This document shows, one piece after another, positions 2,949-50,464 of a stretch of DNA of 64,000 bases. The first letter of the stretch is position 1. Every line of letters starts with the position of its first letter. Position numbers and translations under genes: made by a program. Below the pieces are notes generated by a model. The model worked only from the letters and a program-made list of their open reading frames with translations, did no database searches and had not been told where the DNA came from. The stretch covers positions 141,001-205,000 of the forward strand of contig JAQGDQ010000399.1 in the NCBI GenBank assembly GCA_030141605.1. The letters run 5' to 3'. Origin of the DNA: Tubiluchus corallicola (taxonomy: Eukaryota > Priapulida > Priapulimorpha > Priapulimorphida > Tubiluchidae).

Positions 2949-4588
2949 ATATTATTACATCATTTACTTCATCCTTATTTACATTAAATTATCTACAGAA
3001 GCATGCATAACTATAATCATTATTTCATTTAAGTAAGGTGAGTGTGTTAATGACCGTATGGTCGTACACTCACCTCGCACTACTCAAATTATTACATCAT
3101 TTACTTCATCCTTATTTACATTAAGTTATCTACAGAAGCATGCATAACTATAATCATTTTTCATTTAAGTAAGGTGAGTGTGTTAATGACCGTATGGTCG
3201 TACACTCACCTCGCACTACTCAAATTATTACATCATTTACTTCATCCTTATTTACATTAAGTTATCTACAGAAGCATGCATAACTATAATCATTTTTCAT
3301 TTAAGTAAGGTGAGTGTGTTAATGACCGTATGGTCGTACACTCACCTCGCACTACTCAAATTATTACATCATTTACTTCATCCTTATTTACATTAAGTTA
3401 TCTACAGAAGCATGCATAACTATAATCATTTTTTCATTTAAGTAAGGTGAGTGTGTTAATGACCGTATGGTCGTACACTCACCTCGCACTACTCAAATTA
3501 TTACATCATTTACTTCATCCTTATTTACATTAAGTTATCTACAGAAGCATGCATAACTATAATCATTTTTTATTTAAGTAAGGTGAGTGCGTTAATGACC
3601 GTATGGTCGTACACTCACCTCGCACTACTCAAATTATTACATCATTTACTTCATCCTTATTTACATTAAGTTATCTACAGAAGCATGCATAACTATAATC
3701 ATTTTTTCATTTAAGTAAGGTGAGTGTGTTAATGACCGTATGGTCGTACACTCACCTCGCACTACTCAAATTATTACATCATTTACTTCATCCTTATTTA
3801 CATTAAGTTATCTACAGAAGCATGCATAACTATAATCATTTTTTCATTTAAGTAAGGTGAGTGTGTTAATGACTGTGTGGTCGTACACTCACCTTGCACT
3901 ACTCAAATTATTACATCATTTACTTCATCCTTATTTACATTAAGTTATCTACAGAAGCATGCATAACTATAATCATTTTTTATTTAAGTAAGGTGAGTGT
4001 GTTAATGACCGTATGGTCGTACACTCACCTCGCACTAGTCAAATTATTACATCATTTACTTCATCCTTATTTACATTAAGTTATCTACAGAAGCATGCAT
4101 AACTATAATCATTTTTTATTTAAGTAAGGTGAGTGTGTTAATGACCGTATGGTCGTACACTCACCTCGCACTAGTCAAATTATTACATCATTTACTTCAT
4201 CCTTATTTACATTAAGTTATCTACAGAAGCATGCATAACTATAATCATTTTTTCATTTAAGTAAGGTGAGTGTGTTAATGACTGTGTGGTCGTACACTCA
4301 CCTTGCACTACTCAAATTATTACATCATTTACTTCATCCTTATTTACATTAAGTTATCTACAGAAGCATGCATAACTATAATCATTTTTTATTTAAGTAA
4401 GGTGAGTGTGTTAATGACCGTATGGTCGTACACTCACCTCGCACTAGTCAAATTATTACATCATTTACTTCATCCTTAGTTACATTAAGTTATCTACAGA
4501 AGCATGCATAACTATAATCATTTTTTCATTTAAGTAAGGTGAGTGTGTTAAAGACCGTATGGTCGTACACTCACCTCGCACTACTCAA
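2949..4588. repeat. 136-bp tandem repeat, about 12 copies, with internal palindrome
   Basis: Units of 135-137 bases repeat about twelve times with few differences. Each contains a 40-base palindrome (first copy 3036-3075) with perfect 10-base arms AGGTGAGTGT / ACACTCACCT and an inner GACC-GTAT-GGTC stem. Each arm reads AG|GTGAGT, a consensus splice donor, and because of the symmetry this is true on both strands. Two further units stand at 30526-30808 in the same orientation, and a diverged one near 19996, so the unit belongs to a dispersed element. The copy is followed by an AATAAA-containing tail at 4594-4670. Confidence 0.92.
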
Positions 4589-4727
4589 ATCATTTTATTT
4601 AAAGTTTATTAATGTGTTTGATATTGTATTTTTTGATGTGTGAAAATAAATTCATAGGTCATAGGTCATAGTACGTCATCTTAATGTTGTTTTAATGTCA
4701 TCTTAATGTCGCAATCCGTGTTTTTAG

Positions 4728-5102: not shown

Positions 5103-5503
5103 CGTAAAATAATAATAAAATTATCATTATGCCAGGAAAAATACGCATACCAACTACAAAGTTAAAATTTTGTTAGCAATTATAATGCAGCGTCGAATTA
5201 CATTGTTACTTACGTTTTATCACGTTATGAAATTTCGAATTATTCAAATAAAAAAGTTTGACTTTTAACTTTGCAAAGCTTTTCAAGGTAAACAAAGTGC
5301 CTACTACAAAAATGATACTATATGTATATTAATTATTGCTGACATGCCTTAGCGTTTCAATCAATGTCACCAGTTTCTCCCTATATATATATATATATGA
5401 TAAATATTTTGTCACAGGGAGAAACTGATTACAAAAGCTTTGGGTTACACATTCGCCATTAACTGTCCAGAAGAGTTCACAGCACATAAAATCAATTTCA
5501 TTA
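5103..5503. other. Insertion splitting the SINE, with hairpin
   Basis: This segment is absent from the two sister SINE copies. It contains perfect 12-base inverted arms, CAGTTTCTCCCT and AGGGAGAAACTG, around an AT-rich centre at about 5369-5428. I cannot assign it to a family. Confidence 0.5.
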
Positions 5504-5868
5504 ACATTGATGGAGCTGCAGCGTCGACTGTGGCTGAGCAGTGCGATCCTTGAACGTCTCCAGGGCGCACGCCTGGGCAAGGTGTTTGGAGATCCTGTGT
5601 TGCCCAGACCGCAGGAACCCCCTCTCTTCCTCCCTGGTGTAGTCCAAAGGAAAGCGGGGCGATACGTTTGGCACCAGGTTGGCTGCAGGAGCTGCAGGAG
5701 TCAGTGAGCATGCTGTACTGATCCGCCTTCAGGGCTGCACTCCTGATTTGGAAGGTTTACTCCTCTACACATGGCCGTTGGGTCACTTGACCTCCTCCAC
5801 CCTCTAGCCGTTGGCTGCTTGTGCCGCTCCTCCGCCTAGTGTCGAGATACAATGTGGGCATCCCGCAA

Positions 5869-25734: not shown

Positions 25735-25902
25735 CTGTAATTAGGAGAACTCGTTATTGCAATTGATATGAAATCACAGTGAAGAAGAATAAGAGGAAAA
25801 AAGTTATTTGAATGAAAATTCTGAAGGAAACACAATGTAGCACCTGTCAAAATTTGTCTAGACGAGAAAACAGGTTTCAGAGTTGGGCACGATTCAGACA
25901 GT

Positions 25903-26454
25903 TGTTGTTATTGTTGGCATCCTTCTGTCTCGGAAGACAATGGAGTGTGCGCCAAGAGAGTCAGTTATTGATCACATTGATGGAGCTGCAGTGTCGACTG
26001 TGGCTGAGCAGTGCGATCCTTGAACGTCTTCAGGGCGCACGCCTGGGCAAAGTGTATGGAGATCCTGAGTTGCCCAGACAACAGGAACCCCCTCTCTTCC
26101 TCCCTGGTGTAGTCCAAAGGAAAGCGGAGCGATACGTTTGGCACCAGGTTGGCTGCAGGAGCTGCCGGAGTCAGTGAGCATGCTGCACTGATCCGCCTTC
26201 GGAGCTCCACTCCTGGTTTGGAAGGCTTACTCCTCTACACATGGCCGTTGGTCACTTGACCTCCTCTGCCCTCTAGCCGTTGGCTGCTTGTACAGCTCCT
26301 TTGCCTAGTGTCGAGATACATTGTAAGCATCCCGCAAGCCTACAGCACCTGGTATTCCTAGGCGGTCACCCATCCAAGTACTAAGCAGGCTCTATGTTGC
26401 TTAACTTCGGTGATCAGACGAGGACCGGTGTTTTCAACGCGATTTGGCCGTAGT
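25903..26454 (-). mobile_element. 5S-headed SINE, full-length copy with target duplication
   Basis: The element reads on the minus strand: 5S-derived head (26338-26454), body, and a tail of aac-type repeats after ggatgccaacaa. It is flanked by the exact duplication ATTCAGACAGT (25892-25902 and 26455-26465), which shows reverse-transcriptase-type insertion. A 5S-derived Pol III head defines the SINE3 class; the specific family name is not known to me. It lies in the receptor intron. Confidence 0.9.
26338..26454 (-). pseudogene. Complete 5S rRNA-like SINE head
   Basis: All 5S segments are present on the minus strand, including AAAACACCGGTCCTCGTC, GAAGTTAAGCAACATAGAGC, AGTACTTGGATGGGTGACC and GGAATACCAGGTGCTGTAGG. 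At about 117 bases it is nearly the length of a real 5S RNA. It is joined to a SINE body, so it is a retroposon promoter rather than a ribosomal gene. Confidence 0.87.
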
Positions 26455-26584: not shown

Positions 26585-26765
26585 GAAACAGGTGGCAAGT
26601 TTCTCTTTAAGCGTTGTATGCGTCGTCTATAGTATATGATGATGATGAGAATGATGAGCAAGATGATGATTCCTGCAATGATGCCGCCGATCATTCCAAC
26701 ATTGACTGATGATTCGTCCTCTGCAGAACCTGCAACGCGATACGACCCACCAGCTGGTAATACTT
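26585..26765 (-). CDS. Receptor exon, transmembrane segment
   Basis: Phase 1 start after tttatttgcag and phase 2 end at TTTC|GTAAGT. After a short acidic linker (GSAEDESSVNV) it encodes the hydrophobic helix GMIGGIIAGIIILLIILIII followed by the stop-transfer string YYRRRIQRLKR. This orients the EGF exons outside and the remaining four exons inside the cell. Confidence 0.92.
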
Positions 26766-26802: not shown

Positions 26803-27085
26803 GTTGTTGGCATCCTTCTGTCTCGGAAGACAATGGAGTGTGCGCCAAGCGAGTCAGTTATTGATCACATTGATGGAGCTGCAGCGTCGACTGTGGCTGA
26901 GCAGTGCGATACTTGAACGTCTCTAGGGCGCACGCCTGGGCAAGGTGTATGGAGATCCTGAGTTGCCCAGACAACAGGAACCCCCTCTCTTCCTCCCTGG
27001 TGTAGTCCAAGGGAAAGCGGAGTCATACGTTTGGCACCAGGAGCTGCCGGAGTCAGTGAGCATGCTGCACTGGTCTGTTTGTAAT
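26803..27085 (-). mobile_element. 5S-SINE, 5'-truncated copy beside a splice acceptor
   Basis: This copy keeps the tail and about 280 bases of the body but has lost the 5S head, as expected of 5' truncation. Flanking duplications AATACTAGTAAT are exact (26791-26802 and 27086-27097). Its tail lies only about 37 bases from the acceptor of the transmembrane exon. Confidence 0.9.
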
Positions 27086-27097
27086 AATACTAGTAAT

Positions 27098-27680
27098 ATT
27101 ATTATTAATAGTAAAATACATAAAAGAATTCTTTCTTATAAATAAACTCAGAAAGTATATACCATAGGAGCTTTACCATTAAATGAAATGCTGATCAAAT
27201 TAAATAAATAAAAAATGTGAGATTAGATTCTATAATTAAAGTTAAAAAATTAAAGCACAAGACAACCTCCACTTACATACTGCCTATTGCATACAGGGCT
27301 TGCGTCCACCGTAGCACTGTATAAAACGTGTAAATTTAAACTTCCGCGATGATCATTAGACGCAGCCATTTTGACAACAGGTCATTTGAAAGAAGTTTAG
27401 ATAATGTGTTTAGACAAGTTATATCATATATATAACAATGAGTAAAGTTTGAAAAATAAGTAGAGCTTTCGTAGCGCGCACCTCACTAACTAAGTAAAAT
27501 TTACTGTATTTTGTCAATAAGATTAAAAATACGTTTTTGGTTAGTGAGTGATGCACCCCGGAGGGAGAGTCAGCGACATTTTACCAATTGGTGAAAGCAC
27601 TTTAAATAATTAATAATTTCCTTTTCCAATTACATAAGTCTTTCAAGCAGGTAAGCGAAATGCTAAGTAATATAACTTTA
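27098..27680. other. Receptor intron, no feature seen
   Basis: AT-rich intron sequence. A weak inverted pair ctcactaacta / ttggttagtgag at 27481-27548 may be the remains of a small element. Confidence 0.35.
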
Positions 27681-28689: not shown

Positions 28690-30061
28690 ATGTTTTTCGT
28701 GCATCTCAAGCTTTGCGTTTTCATGGTTTTGACTTTAGTAGCTCTAGGTGCAACAAAAGACGTGTGCAAAGATCAGAACTGTCAATGGAAATTACTCCTG
28801 GCAAGGAAGTGTTACAAAGAATGAAATAATAAGCTACCACAATATTTTTCAACCAAATTGCAGTTCGTTAGAAGGAAAACAGCTTCAAATAGGCATGGCA
28901 ATGGACGAATCACGCCCGTTTCTAGAGAAATTACTTCTGATGCTCAGTAAAACTCAAAATTTCACATACTCCATCAAAGAAGTTGGAAGTTTACGTGATC
29001 CTAATATTGTACTCAGCAATGAAAACATTGACGTGCTTTTTGGTTTGTTCACCATGCTTCCAGAAAGAACAAAATACATGACATTTCTTCACCCAATTAT
29101 CTATTTACGCCGTATCTTTATAATAAAGAGACACGACTTTCAAGGATTTAGTTTGTTGGACCCTTTTCCCAGAAATGTATGGCTGCTTGTGCTAACATAT
29201 GTCATATTGAGTGGGATATTTTTAACTTGTATCTGTTGGCAGAAAACAGAAACACGAAGAGAGAATGATGGCATCGAGACAGATAATGAGAAAACAGCTG
29301 ATTACTTCATTTTGTACACATTATCCTCACTTCTTCAACAAGGTGGAAACTACATACCCTGCCGTTTATCTGCAAGGATGCTAATCGGATGGTGGTGGAT
29401 TTTTGCTCTTATAATGACGGCATTGTACACTGGCACTTTAGTTAGCAAACTGTTTGTAAGCAAATGGCAGCATCCGTTCACGTCACTGCAGGAGCTAATT
29501 GATGGAGATGTAACGCCTGTAACAATAGGAAACTTCTCCTCGACAATATTACTAAAGAATAGCCCCGCTGATACAGAATATGGGAAACTGTGGAAGAAAA
29601 TGGAAGCTGATGGAACGGTACCTGTCAGTACAAATGTCGAAGCACAGGAAAAAACTTTTTCGGGAAAATATACTATGCTTGATACTGACTTTTGGGCAAA
29701 ATTTCGAATCAATGAAGATTACAAGTTACACGGGACATGCAGGTTTTCAGTTGCTCCAGTTTCTTCTCTGCCCGTACCTGCATCAGCTGTCATTCCGAAA
29801 GGCGGCAAAGAGGCAGAACAGTTAAACTACGGACTGGCCACTTTATTGGAGAATGGGATAGCAGAGCAGCTCTTACAGGAGCATTCAGAACAAACATATG
29901 ATTGCCTTGATCCGGTTACTCAAACTGCGAATGCTCAGCCAGTCAACATAGAGTACATTGATGTTGTATTCTGCGCTCTGCTGCTTGGACTAAGCATTGG
30001 TTTAGTTGTATTTGTAGGTGAATGTCTCTACATAAAAGTAATGCGATTAATGAGCAGCTAA
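28690..30061 (+). CDS. Ionotropic receptor (IR)-type glutamate receptor, intronless, with a frame break
   Basis: A ligand-gated ion channel of the iGluR/IR family, nested on the opposite strand in the receptor gene's intron. From 28748 the open frame (437 codons) has S1 (residues 46-130, with the ligand Arg in LPERTKYMTF at 107), M1 (WLLVLTYVILSGIFLTCIC), a pore loop (FILYTLSSLLQQGG), M3 (WWWIFALIMTALYTGTLVSK), S2 with an acidic residue in MLDTDFWAKF, and M4 (VVFCALLLGLSIGLVVFVGE). M3 has ALYTGTLVSKL where canonical iGluRs have SYTANLAAF. No amino-terminal domain precedes S1, as in IRs. The signal peptide MFFVHLKLCVFMVLTLVALG starts at ATG 28690 but in another frame, which ends at 28822; the main frame has a TAG at 28745. 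One extra base, perhaps in the AAAA run at 28755-28758, would explain it. Confidence 0.85.
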
Positions 30062-30503: not shown

Positions 30504-30885
30504 TCAGGTTTATTGCTCTTATACCATTGCTATTATTACATCATTTACTTCATCCTTATTTACATTAAGTTATCTACAAAAGCATGCATAACTATAATCA
30601 TTTTTCATTTAAGTAAGGTGAGTGTGTTAATGACCGTATGGTCGTACACTCACCTCGCACTACTCAAATTATTACATCATTTACTTCACCCTTATTTACA
30701 TTAAGTTATCTACAGAAGCAGGCATAACTATAATCATTTTTTCATTTAAGTAAGGTGAGTGTGTTAATGACCGTATGGTCGTACACTCACCTCGCACTAC
30801 TCAAATTATTTTATTTAAAGTTTATTAATGTGTTTGATATTGTATTTTGATGTGTGAAATAAAATTCACAGTTCAACATCAAAAC
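30504..30885 (+). mobile_element. Second copy of the 136-bp-unit element, two units
   Basis: After ctttcaggtttattgctctt come two 136-base units and then the AT-rich tail with aaataaaattcacag, the same order as at 2915-4680. That copy has about twelve units, so unit number differs between copies of one dispersed element. Confidence 0.8.
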
Positions 30886-36150: not shown

Positions 36151-36252
36151 CTGAACGGCAGATGCAAAGTCCGTCTTTCGCTCGGCACGTTGCTTCATTG
36201 CTACAACTGCACTTGTGACTGCAGTTAAATCCGTATGTGCCTTGCGGACATT
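36151..36252 (-). CDS. Receptor exon, EGF-type half module
   Basis: Phase 1 at both ends (after aattttttag; TCAG|GTTTGT). It encodes CPQGTYGFNCSHKCSCSNEA and TCRAKDGLCICRS. Confidence 0.92.
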
Positions 36253-36980: not shown

Positions 36981-37109
36981 CTTGCGTGCAGTGGGTTCCT
37001 GTCCATCCAGGTAAACAGTGACATTCTCCGGTCACGTGGTCGCATCTCGTATTGGGAGCACAATTGCAAATGTCCTTGCATTCTTCACCATACTGACCAC
37101 TCGGGCAAA
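36981..37109 (-). CDS. Receptor exon, EGF-type module, with an amplified acceptor
   Basis: Phase 1 at both ends (after actgtctatag; CAAG|GTAGAG). It encodes CPSGQYGEECKDICNCAPN, TRCDHVTGECHCLPGWTGTH and CTQ. Its first 19 bases and the adjoining acceptor are repeated nearly 30 times in the upstream intron. Confidence 0.93.
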
Positions 37110-37141
37110 CTATAGACAGTATAAGCAATATTATAGACAAA

Positions 37142-38495
37142 ATAAACACTGCTGTACTGACCGCTCGGGTAAACTACAGACAGTATGACAATTATTATAG
37201 ACAAAACAAAAACTGCTGTACTGACCACTCGGGCAAACTATAAAAACTGCTGTATTGACCACTCGGGCAAACTATAGACAGTATGACCAATATTACAGAC
37301 AAAATAAAGACTGCTGTACTGACCACTCGGGCAAACTATAAACACTGCTGTACTGACAGCTCGGGTAAACTATAAAAACTGCTGTACTGACAGCTCGGGT
37401 AAACTACAGACAGTATGACAATTATTATAGACAAAACAAAAACTGCTGTACTGACCACTCGGGCAAACTATAGACAGTATGACCAATATTACAGACAAAA
37501 TAAAGACTGCTGTACTGACCACTCGGGCAAACTATAAAAACTGCTGTACTGACCACTCGGGCAAACTATAAAAACTGCTGTACTGACCACTCGGGTAAAC
37601 TACAGACAGTATGACAATTATTATAGACAAAACAAAAACTGCTGTACTGACCACTCGGGCAAACTATAAAAACTGCTGTACTGACCACTCGGGCAAACTA
37701 TAGACAGTATGACCAATATTACAGACAAAATAAAGACTGCTGTACTGACCACTCGGGCAAACTATAAAAACTGCTGTACTGACCACTCGGGCAAACTATA
37801 AAAACTGCTGTACTGACCACTCGGGCAAACTATAGACAGTATGACCAATATTACAGACAAAATAAAGACTGCTGTACTGACCACTCGGGCAAACTATAAA
37901 AACTGCTGTACTGACCACTCGGGCAAACTATAAAAACTGCTGTACTGACCACTCGGGCAAACTATAGACAGTATGACCAATATTATAGACAAAATAAACA
38001 CTGCTGTACTGACCACTCGGGCAAACTATAGACAGTATGACCAATATTACAGACAAAATAAAGACTGCTGTACTGACCACCCGGGCAAACTATAAAAACT
38101 GCTGTACTGACCACTCGGGCAAACTATAAAAACTGCTGTACTGACCACTCGGGCAAACTATAGACAGTATGACCAATATTATAGACAAAATAAACACTGC
38201 TGTACTGACCACTCGGGTAAACTATAGACAGTATGACCAATATTACAGACAAAATAAAGACTGCTGTACTGACCACTCGGGCAAACTATAAAAACTGCTG
38301 TACTGACCACTCGGGCAAACTATAGACAGTATGACCAATATTATAGACAAAATAAACACTGCTGTACTGACCACTCGGGCAAACTATAGACAGTATAAGC
38401 AATATTATAGACAAAATAAACACTGCTGTACTGACCACTCGGGCAAACTATAGACAGTATAAGCAATATTATACACAAAATAAACACTGCTGTCA
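37142..38495 (-). repeat. Minisatellite built from an exon start plus its acceptor
   Basis: Each unit carries, on the minus strand, the acceptor (tatag or tacag, or its altered form tttatag) followed by the first 19 bases of the exon at 36981-37109 (TTTGCCCGAGTGGTCAGTA), then a linker. Units come in short (about 35-base) and long (about 64-base) forms mixed along 1.35 kb; I count about 28 exon-start copies. The long form also carries ccaatattatagacaaaata from the intron. The direction of copying is clear because the coding exon is part of a conserved module. Confidence 0.93.
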
Positions 38496-40291: not shown

Positions 40292-40426
40292 CATCAGTGC
40301 AATCGAAACCTGTATACCCTGCAGCACAAGGGCATTTGCCACTGACGGGGTCACATGTTCCAGTTTTTTTATCACATACAGGACAGCGAAGTTTGCATTC
40401 TTCACCATAAAAACCATCTGGACAAG
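40292..40426 (-). CDS. Receptor exon, EGF-type module
   Basis: Phase 1 at both ends (after atgcatctttcag; GATG|GTAGGT). It encodes CPDGFYGEECKLRCPVCDKK, TGTCDPVSGKCPCAAGYTGF and DCTD. Confidence 0.92.
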
Positions 40427-40443
40427 CTGAAAGATGCATAAAA

Positions 40444-42592
40444 TTATTTCACTCCAATCTCTTCCTCACACATGTCATTGTTTCACTCCTATCTCTTCCT
40501 CACACATGTCATTGTTTCACTCCTATCTCTTCCTCACACATGTCATTGTTTCACTCCTACCTCTTCCTCACACATGCCATTGTTTCACTCCAATCTCTTC
40601 CTCACACACGTCATTGTTTCACTCCTATCTCTTCCTCACACATGCCATTGTTTCACTCCTATCTCTTCCTCACACACGTCATTGTTTCACTCCTATCTCT
40701 TCCTCACACATGCCGTTGTTTCACTCCTATCTCTTCCTCACACATGTCATTGTTTCACTCCTATCTCTTCCTCACACATGCCATTGTTTCACTCCTATCT
40801 CTTCCTCACATGTCATTGTTTCACTCCTATCTCTTCCTCACACATGTCATTGTTTCACTCCTATCTCTTCCTCACACACGTCATTGTTTCACTCCTATCT
40901 CTTCCTCACACATGTCATTGTTTCACTCCTATCTCTTCCTCACACACGTCATTGTTTCACTCCTATCTCTTCCTCACACATGTCATTGTTTCACTCCTAT
41001 CTCTTCCTCACACGTCATTGTTTCACTCCTATCTCTTCCTCACACATGTCATTGTTTCACTCCTATCTCTTCCTCACACACGTCATTGTTTCACTCCTAT
41101 CCCTTCCTCACACATGTCATTGTTTCACTCCTATCTCTTCCTCACACACGTCATTGTTTCACTCCTATCTCTTCCTCACACATGCCATTGTTTCACTCCT
41201 ATCTCTTCCTCACACATGTCATTGTTTCACTCCTATCTCTTCCTCACACATGTCATTGTTTCACTCCTATCTCTTCCTCACACATGTCTTTGTTTCACTC
41301 CTATCTCTTCCTCACACATGTCATTGTTTCACTCCTATCTCTTCCTCACACATTCATTGTTTCACTCCTATCTCTTCCTCACACATGCCATTGTTTCACT
41401 CCTATCTCTTCCTCACACATGCCATTGTTTCACTCATATCTCTTCCTCACACATGCCATTGTTTCACTCCTATCTCTTCCTCACACATGCCATTGTTTCA
41501 CTCCTATCTCTTCCTCACACATGCCATTGTTTCACTCCTATCTCTTCCTCACACACGTCATTGTTTCACTCATATCTCTTCCTCACACACGCCGTTGTTT
41601 CACTCCTATCTCTTCCTCACACATGTCATTGTTTCACTCCTATCTCTTCCTCACACATGTCAGTGTTTCACTCCTATCTCTTCCTCACACACGTCATTGT
41701 TTCACTCCTATCTCTTCCTCACACATGTCATTGTTTCACTACTATCTCTTCCTCACACATGTCATTGTTTCACTCCCATCTCTTCCTCACACATGTCATT
41801 GTTTCACTCCTATCTCTTCCTCATACACGTCATTGTTTCACTCCTATCTCTTCCTCACACACGTCATTGTTTCACTCCTATCCCTTCCTCACACATGTCA
41901 TTGTTTCACTCCTATCTCTTCCTCACACATGTCATTGTTTCACTCCTATCTCTTCCTCACACATGCCATTGTTTCACTCCTATCTCTTCCTCACACACGT
42001 CATTGTTTCACTCATATCTCTTCCTCACACATGTCATTGTTTCACTCCTATCTCTTCCTCACACATGCGATGTTTCACTCCTATCTCTTCCTCACACATG
42101 TCATTGTTTCACTACTACCTCTTCCTCACACATGTCATTGTTTCACTCCTATCTCTTCCTCACACACGTCATTGTTTCACTCCTATCTCTTCCTCACACA
42201 TGTCATTGTTTCACTCCTATCTCTTCCTCACACATGTCATTGTTTCACTACTATCTCTTCCTCACACATGTCATTGTTTCACTCCTATCTCTTCCTCACA
42301 CAAGTCATTGTTTCACTCCTATCTCTTCCTCACACATGTCATTGTATCACTCCTATCTCTTCCTCACACATGTCGTTGTTTCACTCCCATCTCTTCCTCA
42401 CACATGTCATTGTTTCACTCCTATCTCTTCCTCACACAGGTCACTGTTTCACTCCTATCTCTTCCTCACACATGTCATTGTTTCACTCCTATCTCTTCCT
42501 CACACATGTCACTGTTTCACTCCTATCTCTTCCTCACACATATCATTGTATCACTCCTATCTCTTCCTCACCACACATATCACTGTTTCATA
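40444..42592. repeat. 34-bp minisatellite, about 63 copies
   Basis: The unit tgtcattgtttcactcctat ctcttcctcacaca repeats over 2.15 kb starting about 18 bases beyond the acceptor of the exon at 40292-40426. Changes are single bases or losses of one to three bases. Because 34 is not a multiple of three, all three plus frames stay open for 700 codons; the unit simply lacks stops. In gene sense the array is purine-rich and lies in the intron. Confidence 0.96.
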
Positions 42593-46240: not shown

Positions 46241-47805
46241 CAACCTCGGCCGAGTTAGCTGATTTACTGTGCGAGTCAGCTGATGTAGCAGCAATTGACT
46301 CAGCTTCAACAGAGCTAGCTGATTTACAGTGTGAGTCAGCTGATGTAGCAGCAATTGACTCAGCTTCAACAGAGCTAGCTGATTTACTGTGCGAGTCAGC
46401 TGATGTAGCAGCAATTGACTCAGCTTCAGTCGAGCTAGCTGATTTACTGTGCGAGTCAGCTGATGCAGTAGTAACTGACTCAGCTTCAGGCGAGCTAGCT
46501 GATTTACTGTGTGAGTCAGCTGATGTTGCAGCAATTGACTCAGCTTCAGCCGAGCTAGCTGATTTACTGTGTGAGTCAGCTGATGTAGCAGCAATTGACT
46601 CAGCTTCAACAGAGCTAGCTGATTTACTGTGTGAGTCAGCTGATGTAGCAGCAATTGACTCAGCTTCAACAGAGCTAGCTGATTTACTGTGCGAGTCAGC
46701 TGATGTAGCAGCAATTGACTCAGCTTCAGTCGAGCTAGCTGATTTACTGTGCGAGTCAGCTGATGCAGTAGTAACTGACTCAGCTTCAGGCGAGCTAGCT
46801 GATTTACTGTGTGAGTCAGCTGATGTTGCAGCAATTGACTCAGCTTCAGCCGAGCTAGCTGATTTACTGTGTGAGTCAGCTGATGTAGCAGCAATTGACT
46901 CAGCTTCAACAGAGCTAGCTGATTTACTGTGTGAGTCAGCTGATGTAGCAGCAATTGACTCAGTTTCAACAGAGCTAGCTGATTTACTGTGTGAGTCAGC
47001 TGATGTAGCAGCAATTGACTCAGCTTCAACAGAGCTAGCTGATTTACTGTGCGAGTCAGCTGATGTAGCAGCAATTGACTCAGCTTCAGCCGAGCTAGCT
47101 GATGTTGCAGCAATTGACTCAGCTTCAGCCGAGCTAGCTGATTTACTGTGTGAGTCAGCTGATGTTGCAGCAATTGACTCAGCTTCAGTCGAGCCAGCTG
47201 ATTTACTGTGTGAGTCAGCTGATGCAGTAGTAACTGACTCAGCTTCAGACGAGCTAGCTGATTTACTGTGTGAGTCAGCTGATGTTGCAGCAATTGACTC
47301 AGCTTCAGCCGAGCTAGCTGATTTACTGGGTGAGTCAGCTGATGTTGCAGCAATTGACTCAGCTTCAGTCGAGCGAGCTGATTTACTGTGAGTCAGCTGA
47401 TGTAGTAGCAACTGACTCAGCTTCAGCCGAACTAGCTGATTTACTGTGAGTCAGCTGATGTACTAGCAACTGACCCAGATTCAGCCGAGCTAGCTGATTC
47501 ACTGTGCAAGTCAACTGATGTAGTAGCAACTGACCCAGATTCAGCCAAACTAGCTGATTCACTGTGCAAGTCAACTGATGTAGTAGCAACTGACCCAGAT
47601 TCAGCCGAGCTAGCTGATTCACTGTGCAAGTCAACTGATGTAGTAGCAACTGACTCAGCTTCAGCCAAACTAGCTGATTCACTGTGCAAGTCAACTGATG
47701 TAGTAGCGACTGACTCAGCTTCAGCCGAGCTAGCTGATTTACCGTGTGAGTCAGCCGATGTAGCAGCATTTGACTCAGCTTCAGCCTCTAGCTATTCACC
47801 GATAA
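46241..47805. repeat. 60-bp minisatellite, about 26 units, with AP-1/CNC-type motifs and a higher-order repeat
   Basis: Units of exactly 60 bases contain gagctagctgatttactgtg, tgagtcagctgatgtagcag and caattgactcagcttcaac. Each has two bZIP-type sites (TGAGTCAGC and TGACTCAGC, the AP-1/NF-E2/antioxidant-element core) and an E-box CAGCTG. A five-unit, 300-base block is repeated at 46381-46680 and 46681-46980. Past 47383 the units diverge (gtgcaagtcaactgatg, gacccagattcag). It ends about 150 bases before the start codon of the cGLR gene. Minus-strand open frames of about 390 codons (SADSHSKSASSAEAESIAAT repeats) follow from the period of 60. Confidence 0.93.
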
Positions 47806-47958
47806 TGCTACACGAATAAGCATTGCACTTTCCATGCAGTGTTCTGCAGCATTGAACATTTATAGAGAGTAAATGTCATTCATGTTTGTAAGTTTTTATA
47901 AGTGTTTGAACTGTCTCTCAATTCTTACTTCAGTATGTTACACTCTTTCAGCTTCATC
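47806..47958 (+). promoter_or_regulatory. 5' region of the ankyrin-cGLR gene
   Basis: Between the 60-base array and the start codon lies a short unique stretch. ctctcaattcttacttcag at 47915-47933 is a good 3' splice site, so a 5' untranslated exon may lie upstream. An in-frame ATG at 47935 precedes the better-context ATG at 47959. Confidence 0.5.
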
Positions 47959-50464
47959 ATGGACGACATAGAAAAACTGATTAGTAATTTGCCAGCCGCC
48001 AGTCAAAAGACAGAACTTGAGGAGTTAAAAAACAGTTACATGAACTCTGACACTGAAACAACGAAGATACAATGTCTCAACAAGATGCTACGCGCCGCAA
48101 CCCGATTTAACATGCCTGAACTTGTTGATCAAATACTCGACAGTGGTGCAGAAATCGACAGTGCAATAGAAACGACTAGAAGTGGCCGTTTCTCCTTCTT
48201 AAAAGACTACGAACCAGAAACGCCGCTGGAAATTACTTGCTTTCTTGGACACACTTCTCTTGCCCAAAAACTGATTTCACGAGGATGCAAAATCAACTAT
48301 CTTAGGCAAGGGAAAGAATGGTCCGCCCTTACGCATGCGGCTAGAAAGGGCAATGCGGAAATTTGTAAAATTTTGCTGGATCACGATGCAGATGTTGACG
48401 GTGCAAGTGTTGATGGTGCAAACGTTGATGGTGCAAGTGTTGATGGTGCAAACGTTGACGGTGCAGGTGTTGATGGTGCAGACGTTGGCGGTGCAGATGT
48501 TGACGGTGTTGCAAAGCCCTTTGTTGTAGAAAAAACAAGCCCTTTAGAACACGCAGTGCTGGAAAACCAATTCAAAGTTGTAGACTTGTTGATAAAGTAT
48601 GGTGCAAAGGTCAACAAACCGGGCGCTGCGGACGGAGGGGGTTATACGGCTTTAATGGCAGCAACAAGGCACGCACACACCGGAATGATCGCTTACTTAC
48701 TCTTGAAAGGTGCAAACATGTTTTACAGAAACAGACATGGCAACACTTCGTTGCATTTAGCAGCTTGGGAAGGGCATGCTGACGCAGCTGCTTGCCTCAT
48801 ATTTGCAGGAGCTGACATTCTGGCAGAAAACAACAATGGCGATACACCGCTTTCCTTTGCATGTACCAAGGCCAACTTAAGCGTTGTAAAACTTTTACAC
48901 GAACATATGAGAACAAGGCATTCAGACGAAGAGGTACTACAGGTGTTGAACAAAGTGTATACAGGAGGTAACAGTCTAATCCATTTGACTTGTCTCAATG
49001 CACATCTGACAAAAGACAGCGTAAAAACTGTTATGTATCTTATTCATGCAGGTGTTCGGGTGGAAATATTAAATCACGAACACAAAACGGCTTATGATGT
49101 GTGCTTACGAACAGGCTTCAAATAAAGCGTATAAACAGATTGCAGGGATTTTTCTCACTTACACACACTTTCAAAACTTCGAAAAACACACGAACAGCCA
49201 AGAAAACGAAGCGCCGGGACAAGACGAAACTCTGCCCGAAAACTTCTGGAACGGGTTTCCGGTTACGGATTTGCTTTCGATTCCGGGACTGGGTTTAGTT
49301 TCCAAACAGCCGGATTTCGAAACTTTTCGAAACAGAATAATTGACTTACTGCAGTCCGCATGCAGCTTGTTTGAGAAAATTGACGACACCTTTCTAGAAT
49401 GTAGACCCATACTTGTGGGAAGCTCATCATGCGGAATTAAGATTGGACGTGCAGATGAGTATGACTTTTTCGTAGTCGTGAAACAACACAAAGATTATAC
49501 CATAGAGAATTTCCTCAAAAGCCCCACACTGCCGATTGTGGTGAAATTAAAGGAGAGGTTTTCTCGGTGCTTGTGCAAAGCCATGGAGATCGCTTTGCAA
49601 AATCACAAGACAATTCTGCCAAACGATTTCCCGCATATAGTAGAATGGAACAAAGTATGCACTTGTTTCAACTTACGTCTTTTGTCGGAGAGCGGTCGAT
49701 GGAACGAAGTCTCTGTCGACGTGACTCCGTGTTTCGAGAATTTGGAAAAGCCTGCTAATGCAAACGAGAATTGGCCAAGAGACGTCGGTTACCATTATGT
49801 GCTTAAAGTAACAAACCCCAAAAGTACAAAGGAAAACAGTAGTCTGGTCACAATTGTCCCAACTTTTGGCGTAGCCGAATGTCACTTTATACAAAACTTG
49901 GATGACAACCATAAGAGTGCTGGCGCTCTAATCAAGTTACTGGTAAAACCTGATCTGTATGGATTTCAATTTCGAAACCAGGCTTGCCCCGATTTTATCG
50001 CTTATCACAACATTCTTGTCAAGGCTGAAATAAACTGGAATGACCTCCAAAATGCCGTAAAATATCGACCAAACAAAGCGATAGATTCATATTTGCTGAA
50101 AATCGCCTTCCTACACGAAGTGATTACGGTACCTAAAACAGAGGATTGGTGTGGAGACAATTTGAAAGCACGAGCCATTTCAATATTTCGATACATTGCA
50201 GGCTGCTGTAGAACACAAGAAATGTATCATCCACTGTTAAACGACATCAACATCTTGAAAGACTTAAAATCAAAAGACATGAGCGGCATTCCATTATTAA
50301 CGCTAGCCGAGGAGTCGGCACAAGCCATTGCTGACAAGCTGGTTGACGGTACCATACCCTCACAATCCGGTCTGAGGGAACTAGACTTTGAAAAGTACAA
50401 GAACATAATAACAGCGCAGGCAGTAAATAAGCTATTGGCAAAGCGGAACAAGGTCTTTGTTTAA
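47959..50464 (+). CDS. Ankyrin-repeat cGAS-like receptor (Mab21/cGLR), with one frame break
   Basis: The N-terminal half (47959-49122, 388 codons, start ATGG in good context) has about seven ankyrin repeats, such as TPLEITCFLGHTSLAQKLI and GNTSLHLAAWEGHADAAACL. The C-terminal half (open from 49094 to TAA 50462-50464) is a Mab21/cGAS-type nucleotidyltransferase: LVGSSSCGIKIGRADEYDF gives the GS and the E-x-D pair (codons at 49457 and 49463), and WNEVSVDVTPCF the third acidic residue (49718). Enzymes of this family make cyclic dinucleotide signals on sensing nucleic acid; the ligand here is unknown. The cGAS zinc-thumb H/CC/C motif is not seen. The halves are out of frame: the first stops at 49123 in TTC AAA TAA. 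One extra A at 49120-49122 would explain it, giving the expected KAYKQIAGIF continuation of the last repeat. It is intronless over its coding part and nested in a receptor intron. Confidence 0.9.
48394..48510 (+). repeat. In-frame 15-bp coding minisatellite within the ankyrin region
   Basis: Eight or so units of gatggtgcaaRtgtt encode VDGAS, VDGAN, VDGAG and VDGAD, inserted at the loop after an ankyrin helix (ILLDHDADVDGA). The period of 15 keeps the frame, so the receptor has an expanded acidic, flexible loop. Confidence 0.9.

Follow-up and report, generated by a model that had tools for sequence, protein, structure and literature searches.

A mirage-type minisatellite at the start of an EGF exon in a predicted Draper/MEGF10-like gene of the priapulid Tubiluchus corallicola

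How does the splicing machinery settle on the start of an exon when that start, together with its acceptor, is repeated many times over in the intron ahead of it, and what would such an array be for? The question is raised by a locus of Tubiluchus corallicola (Priapulida) in a 64-kb stretch of contig JAQGDQ010000399.1 (the window), where a minisatellite at 38492-37091 on the minus strand lies upstream of an epidermal growth factor (EGF) exon of a predicted Draper/MEGF10-like gene. A scripted parse divides it into 28 units, 15 long (64 nt) and 13 short (34 nt), with the real exon boundary as the last unit. Every unit ends in TTTGCCCGAGTGGTCAGTA or a near-copy, so that 27 upstream copies accompany the exon's own start, and this 19-mer is identical in 20 of the 27. 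In all 28 units the copied exon start is immediately preceded by AG. Thus, an earlier, sequence-only reading of this DNA, that an acceptor and exon start had been amplified in place ahead of this exon, with close to 30 acceptor-like sites met before the real one, is borne out. Its description of the copies as preceded by "tatag or tacag" holds for TATAG (25 of 28 units on the gene strand), but the other three read TGTAG, "tacag" being a plus-strand reading; similarly, the array lies inside the intron as proposed without filling it, occupying only the 3' ~1.4 kb of a modelled 3.2-kb intron (40291-37110). We interpret the array as a "mirage" minisatellite, a neutral by-product of a minisatellite-rich locus in which the real exon, together with its donor, would determine splicing, and we give this interpretation a probability of roughly four in five.

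The repetition is not accidental: in 64 kb even two occurrences of a given 19-base word would be unexpected, which excludes a chance origin by arithmetic. Beyond the window, the 19-mer has no exact match across viral contigs and a single one in a prokaryote genome collection of 257 billion bases, in a metagenome-assembled genome of Campylobacterales; as a single copy where ~2 matches are expected by arithmetic, we judged it to be chance.

The exon from which the copies would derive is credible. It starts with TTTGCCCGAGTGGTCAGTATGG directly after ctatag, encodes an EGF module opening CPSGQYGEEC, is bounded by GT-AG, and is consistent with six other EGF exons modelled in the same way. The gene model, a prediction that joins GT-AG bounded open reading frame (ORF) pieces, comprises eight consecutive exons spanning 53508-26585; each of the first seven is a multiple of 3 in length, has phase 1 at either end and encodes EGF-type cysteine modules, and two more EGF-like stretches lie upstream at ~60.6 and ~62.4 kb. 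The 367-residue modelled product has 70 protein matches, none above 50% identity, among them Drosophila Draper, to which it is 47-50% identical over ~60% of its length, together with entries for MEGF10/11 and PEAR1. In the model, EGF modules of this type form a run that precedes a transmembrane segment, and the host gene as modelled is Draper/MEGF10-like. In an alignment with 5 of the 70 matches, whose register is uncertain owing to the repetitive EGF modules, the module of this exon is covered fully by P0002, P0007 and P0026, partly by P0032 and not by P0006; in the three with full coverage it adjoins the previous module directly, with no residues resembling those encoded by the array. EGF modules of this type open with CPSGQY, varied forms of which recur across the sister exons, and this indicates that the array derives from the exon and not the reverse.

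The internal pattern of the array points to the way in which it may have grown. Unit 2, near the far edge, is identical to the real boundary unit (unit 28) over all 64 nt, and the identity continues 8 nt into the adjoining unit. The exon-side unit 28 shares an intron variant, GCTTATACTG, with the two units at the far edge (1 and 2), and none of the 12 remaining long units carries it. This sharing suggests that the edges escape homogenization, as they should where units are exchanged unequally within an array. We therefore envisage a tandem duplication of a 64-bp segment, 45 bases of intron end plus 19 bases of exon start, which unequal exchange or slippage then expanded to 28 units. The short unit equals the long unit minus 30 intron-derived nucleotides, and a 30-bp internal deletion would have produced this 34-nt type. 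In-register gain or loss of units would always leave one complete boundary against the exon body, and selection may therefore hardly see changes in unit number. The 27 upstream acceptors are probably mostly silent because each lacks an exon body and a downstream donor. The real acceptor would be chosen through exon definition, and on this reasoning, as well as by analogy with known mirages, silence is the likeliest state of the decoys. Of the three roles that the sequence-only reading had offered for the copies (silenced decoys, an acceptor reservoir or alternative starts), we consider the first the most likely.

Several observations weigh against this interpretation. The AG has been retained in every unit, and differing cells are less frequent in the copied coding part (12/513) than in the intron part of the long units (52/630), which could hint at constraint; by sites, 5/19 vary among the decoys in the copied coding part and 9/45 in the long-unit intron part. 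Both comparisons are weak, as the units share ancestry and are not independent, and we read them as giving no clear constraint on the decoys and no sign of retention for coding. In a rough, low-power acceptor matrix built from 8 of 9 sister acceptors, with those scored leave-one-out, 26 of 27 decoys fall inside the span of the 8 sister acceptors. Against the real site in the same low-power matrix, 25 of 27 decoys score lower and 2 tie, and the real acceptor is itself middling by this rough measure, with 16% of background AGs scoring as high. Local sequence would lead one to expect at least unit 2 to function as well as the real site.

What use of the upstream acceptors would encode bears directly on the alternatives. 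Both unit lengths leave a remainder of 1 modulo 3, so that by length alone the frame would be preserved in every third copy. However, read-through from the previous exon via any of the 27 upstream acceptors runs into a stop codon, the 23rd to 36th past the junction, in copies that are in frame by length as well, and none of the 27 preserves an open frame across the exon. The nearest of them (unit 27, 37173) adds 64 nt and shifts the frame. Furthermore, seven upstream copies are variant, with an altered peptide in six, and the EGF cysteine codon is lost in five (5/27 upstream copies). Thus, although the retained AGs and the one exact 64-nt boundary copy are what a reserve buffering mutation of the real acceptor might look like, both the reservoir and the alternative starts proposed for the array fail at the protein level for read-through use, and we give them almost no credence. 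The same stops suit a different idea, in which the decoys are used to a measurable extent, their premature stops trigger nonsense-mediated decay and array length tunes gene output. For all 27 decoys the stop precedes the extended exon's end by 104 to 1360 nt, and stops so placed usually lead to decay; the decoy scores within the sister-acceptor span favour this idea too. But a unit length that is not a multiple of 3, with stops in the frames, yields the same outcome without selection, and reverse transcription polymerase chain reaction (RT-PCR) on amphioxus mirages pointed to regular splicing (PMC3087553). We consider such a rheostat unlikely.

Other explanations would change what the array is or how its acceptors are kept out of use. 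One is that the array transcript folds so as to hide the upstream acceptors. A 620-nt piece comprising its exon-proximal third and the exon (37600-36981) folds no better than shuffled sequence (z +1.59; 19 of 20 shuffles at least as stable); for this piece we found no point in support of masking by structure, and regard such masking as extremely improbable. A donor-like site (GTGGTCAGT or GCGGTCAGT) lies 12 nt past the copied acceptor in 24 of 27 upstream units, with 6/9 matches to the U1 consensus, a score at least as high as that of 7 of the gene's 8 examined real donors (range 4 to 7 matches). The array might then be a store of frame-neutral 12-nt microexons, each inclusion of which would add four in-frame residues (VCPS-VCPSGQY) and give length-variable linkers with an additional cysteine between EGF modules. 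However, the real exon has an identical donor-like site at the corresponding position, and an exon of 12 nt would be very short, so that we hold this to be highly doubtful. It is also improbable, if somewhat less so, that the array is erroneous or its copy number wrong through misassembly. Assembly of long arrays of near-identical units is difficult, this one shows partial higher-order periods of 98 to 196 nt, and one mirage in an amphioxus draft was apparently misassembled (PMC3087553); against this, several unit types with interspersed single-base variants succeed one another without forming a simple loop, and comparable arrays are frequent across the window. The copy number itself could still be off.

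Boundary-spanning repeats have precedents. Amphioxus globin genes contain "minisatellite-like tandem duplications" of exon-intron boundaries, termed "mirages" (BflGb6 and BflGb9; PMC3087553), and boundary repeats of lancelet PGBD5 have been likened to them (PMC3902484); thus, the suggestion that a coding fragment amplified with its acceptor falls outside standard descriptions of minisatellites is not upheld. The BflGb6 mirage comprises an intron 3' end and an exon 5' part, with splice signals in many copies and cluster edges excluded from homogenization (PMC3087553). The array described here has the same geometry and shares both features, but with 27 upstream copies of 64/34 nt, whereas BflGb6 has 6 and 3 units of 150-160 bp on two haplotypes. 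Adh3 mirages, also of amphioxus, have 10-72 bp units and show somatic instability (cited in PMC3087553). These Adh3 data together with RT-PCR suggest that mirages leave regular splicing undisturbed (PMC3087553), and mirages of Adh and troponin C are reported not to give rise to aberrant mRNAs (PMC3902484).

In human CBS, the 844ins68 polymorphism duplicates a 68-bp junction into two copies, and splicing strongly prefers the more distal site, so that the upstream copy is removed and the remainder of the exon kept (PMC2630376, which speaks of "splice donor sites", while the title of its cited source, Romano 2002, concerns 3' splice site selection). The duplicated junction is of nearly equal size to ours (68 bp and 64 nt), but has one extra copy compared with 27, and its splicing outcome has been reported. 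A 31-bp variable number tandem repeat of the same gene, c.1444_1467+7(16_21), has 16-21 tandem copies (PMC2630376) and, by its name, a unit covering the exon end and the first 7 intron bases; it is thus on the donor side, whereas the present array is on the acceptor side. Genes in human segmental duplications also carry minisatellites at exon-intron boundaries, with gene-modifying units of 30 bp on average, but these have 4 units on average, and formation of novel introns is claimed for some of those only (PMC2812944). With a unit that spans a predicted exon-intron boundary, an AG in every unit and an edge variant shared by units 1, 2 and 28, the present array has the marks of a mirage. The locus is new, and its kind is already known: it is a large, clean minisatellite of the mirage type. 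The features on which this interpretation draws are collected in Table 1.

Table 1. Repeat units and neighbouring exons of the predicted gene (window positions)
Feature	Positions	Strand	Basis	Details
EGF-coding exon following the array	36981..37109	-	predicted	129 nt; phase 1 at both ends; acceptor ctatag/TTTGCC, donor CGCAAG/gtagag
Preceding EGF exon	40292..40426	-	gene model	135 nt; donor predicted to join the acceptor adjoining 37109
Next EGF-coding exon	36151..36252	-	gene model	102 nt
Exon with transmembrane-like stretch	26585..26765	-	gene model	last of the modelled part
Units 1-27, upstream	37155..38492	-	unit parse	14 long (64 nt) and 13 short (34 nt)
Unit 2	38365..38428	-	unit comparison	exact 64-nt copy of the real boundary unit
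Unit 28, real exon boundary	37091..37154	-	unit parse; identical to unit 2 over 64 nt	45 intron and 19 exon nt
Exonic part of the last unit	37091..37109	-	unit parse	first 19 exon bases

Tandem repeats are common in this window, where 16 merged arrays of period at least 10 make up 33% of the sequence. Only one of the 16 overlaps any of the ten exons or EGF-like stretches of the gene, below a circular-shift mean of 3.1 (share of shifts with one or fewer overlaps, 0.04; one exon end was placed a base off in this comparison), and the idea that arrays are drawn to exons was rejected on this basis. A 34-bp minisatellite of ~63 copies (40443-42571) occupies part of the intron before the preceding EGF exon, ending 16 nt short of that exon with no overlap. 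Two separate arrays, at 2951-4594 and 30532-30810, have nearly the same 136-137 bp unit, which is thus both dispersed and in tandem and may belong to a mobile element. A 60-bp repeat at 46252-47786 carries several open frames on both strands, and three copies of a dispersed repeat with similar translations (5329-5756, 25812-26234 and 26865-27145) were spotted by eye in the ORF lists.

Other genes appear to lie within the introns of the modelled EGF gene, on the plus strand. A gene with ankyrin and Mab-21-like domains (47902-50464) lies inside a modelled 12.9-kb intron, in two overlapping frames where an 83%-identical relative (one match) has a single 800-aa frame. A 437-codon ORF with a ligand-gated ion channel domain of the ionotropic glutamate receptor type (28748-30061), which has two protein matches, lies inside another.

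If the gene is spliced as predicted, the array offers a clean natural test of how 3' splice sites are chosen. Unit 2 lies ~1.3 kb upstream of the real site with the same last 45 intron and first 19 exon bases, and since these 64 nt are identical, any difference in usage between the two must stem from the exon body, the downstream donor or distance. The locus also shows that a minisatellite can grow from a coding exon while the predicted exon is left intact. Additionally, the array constitutes a store of variants, including the copies that lack an EGF cysteine, which gene conversion could carry into the exon.
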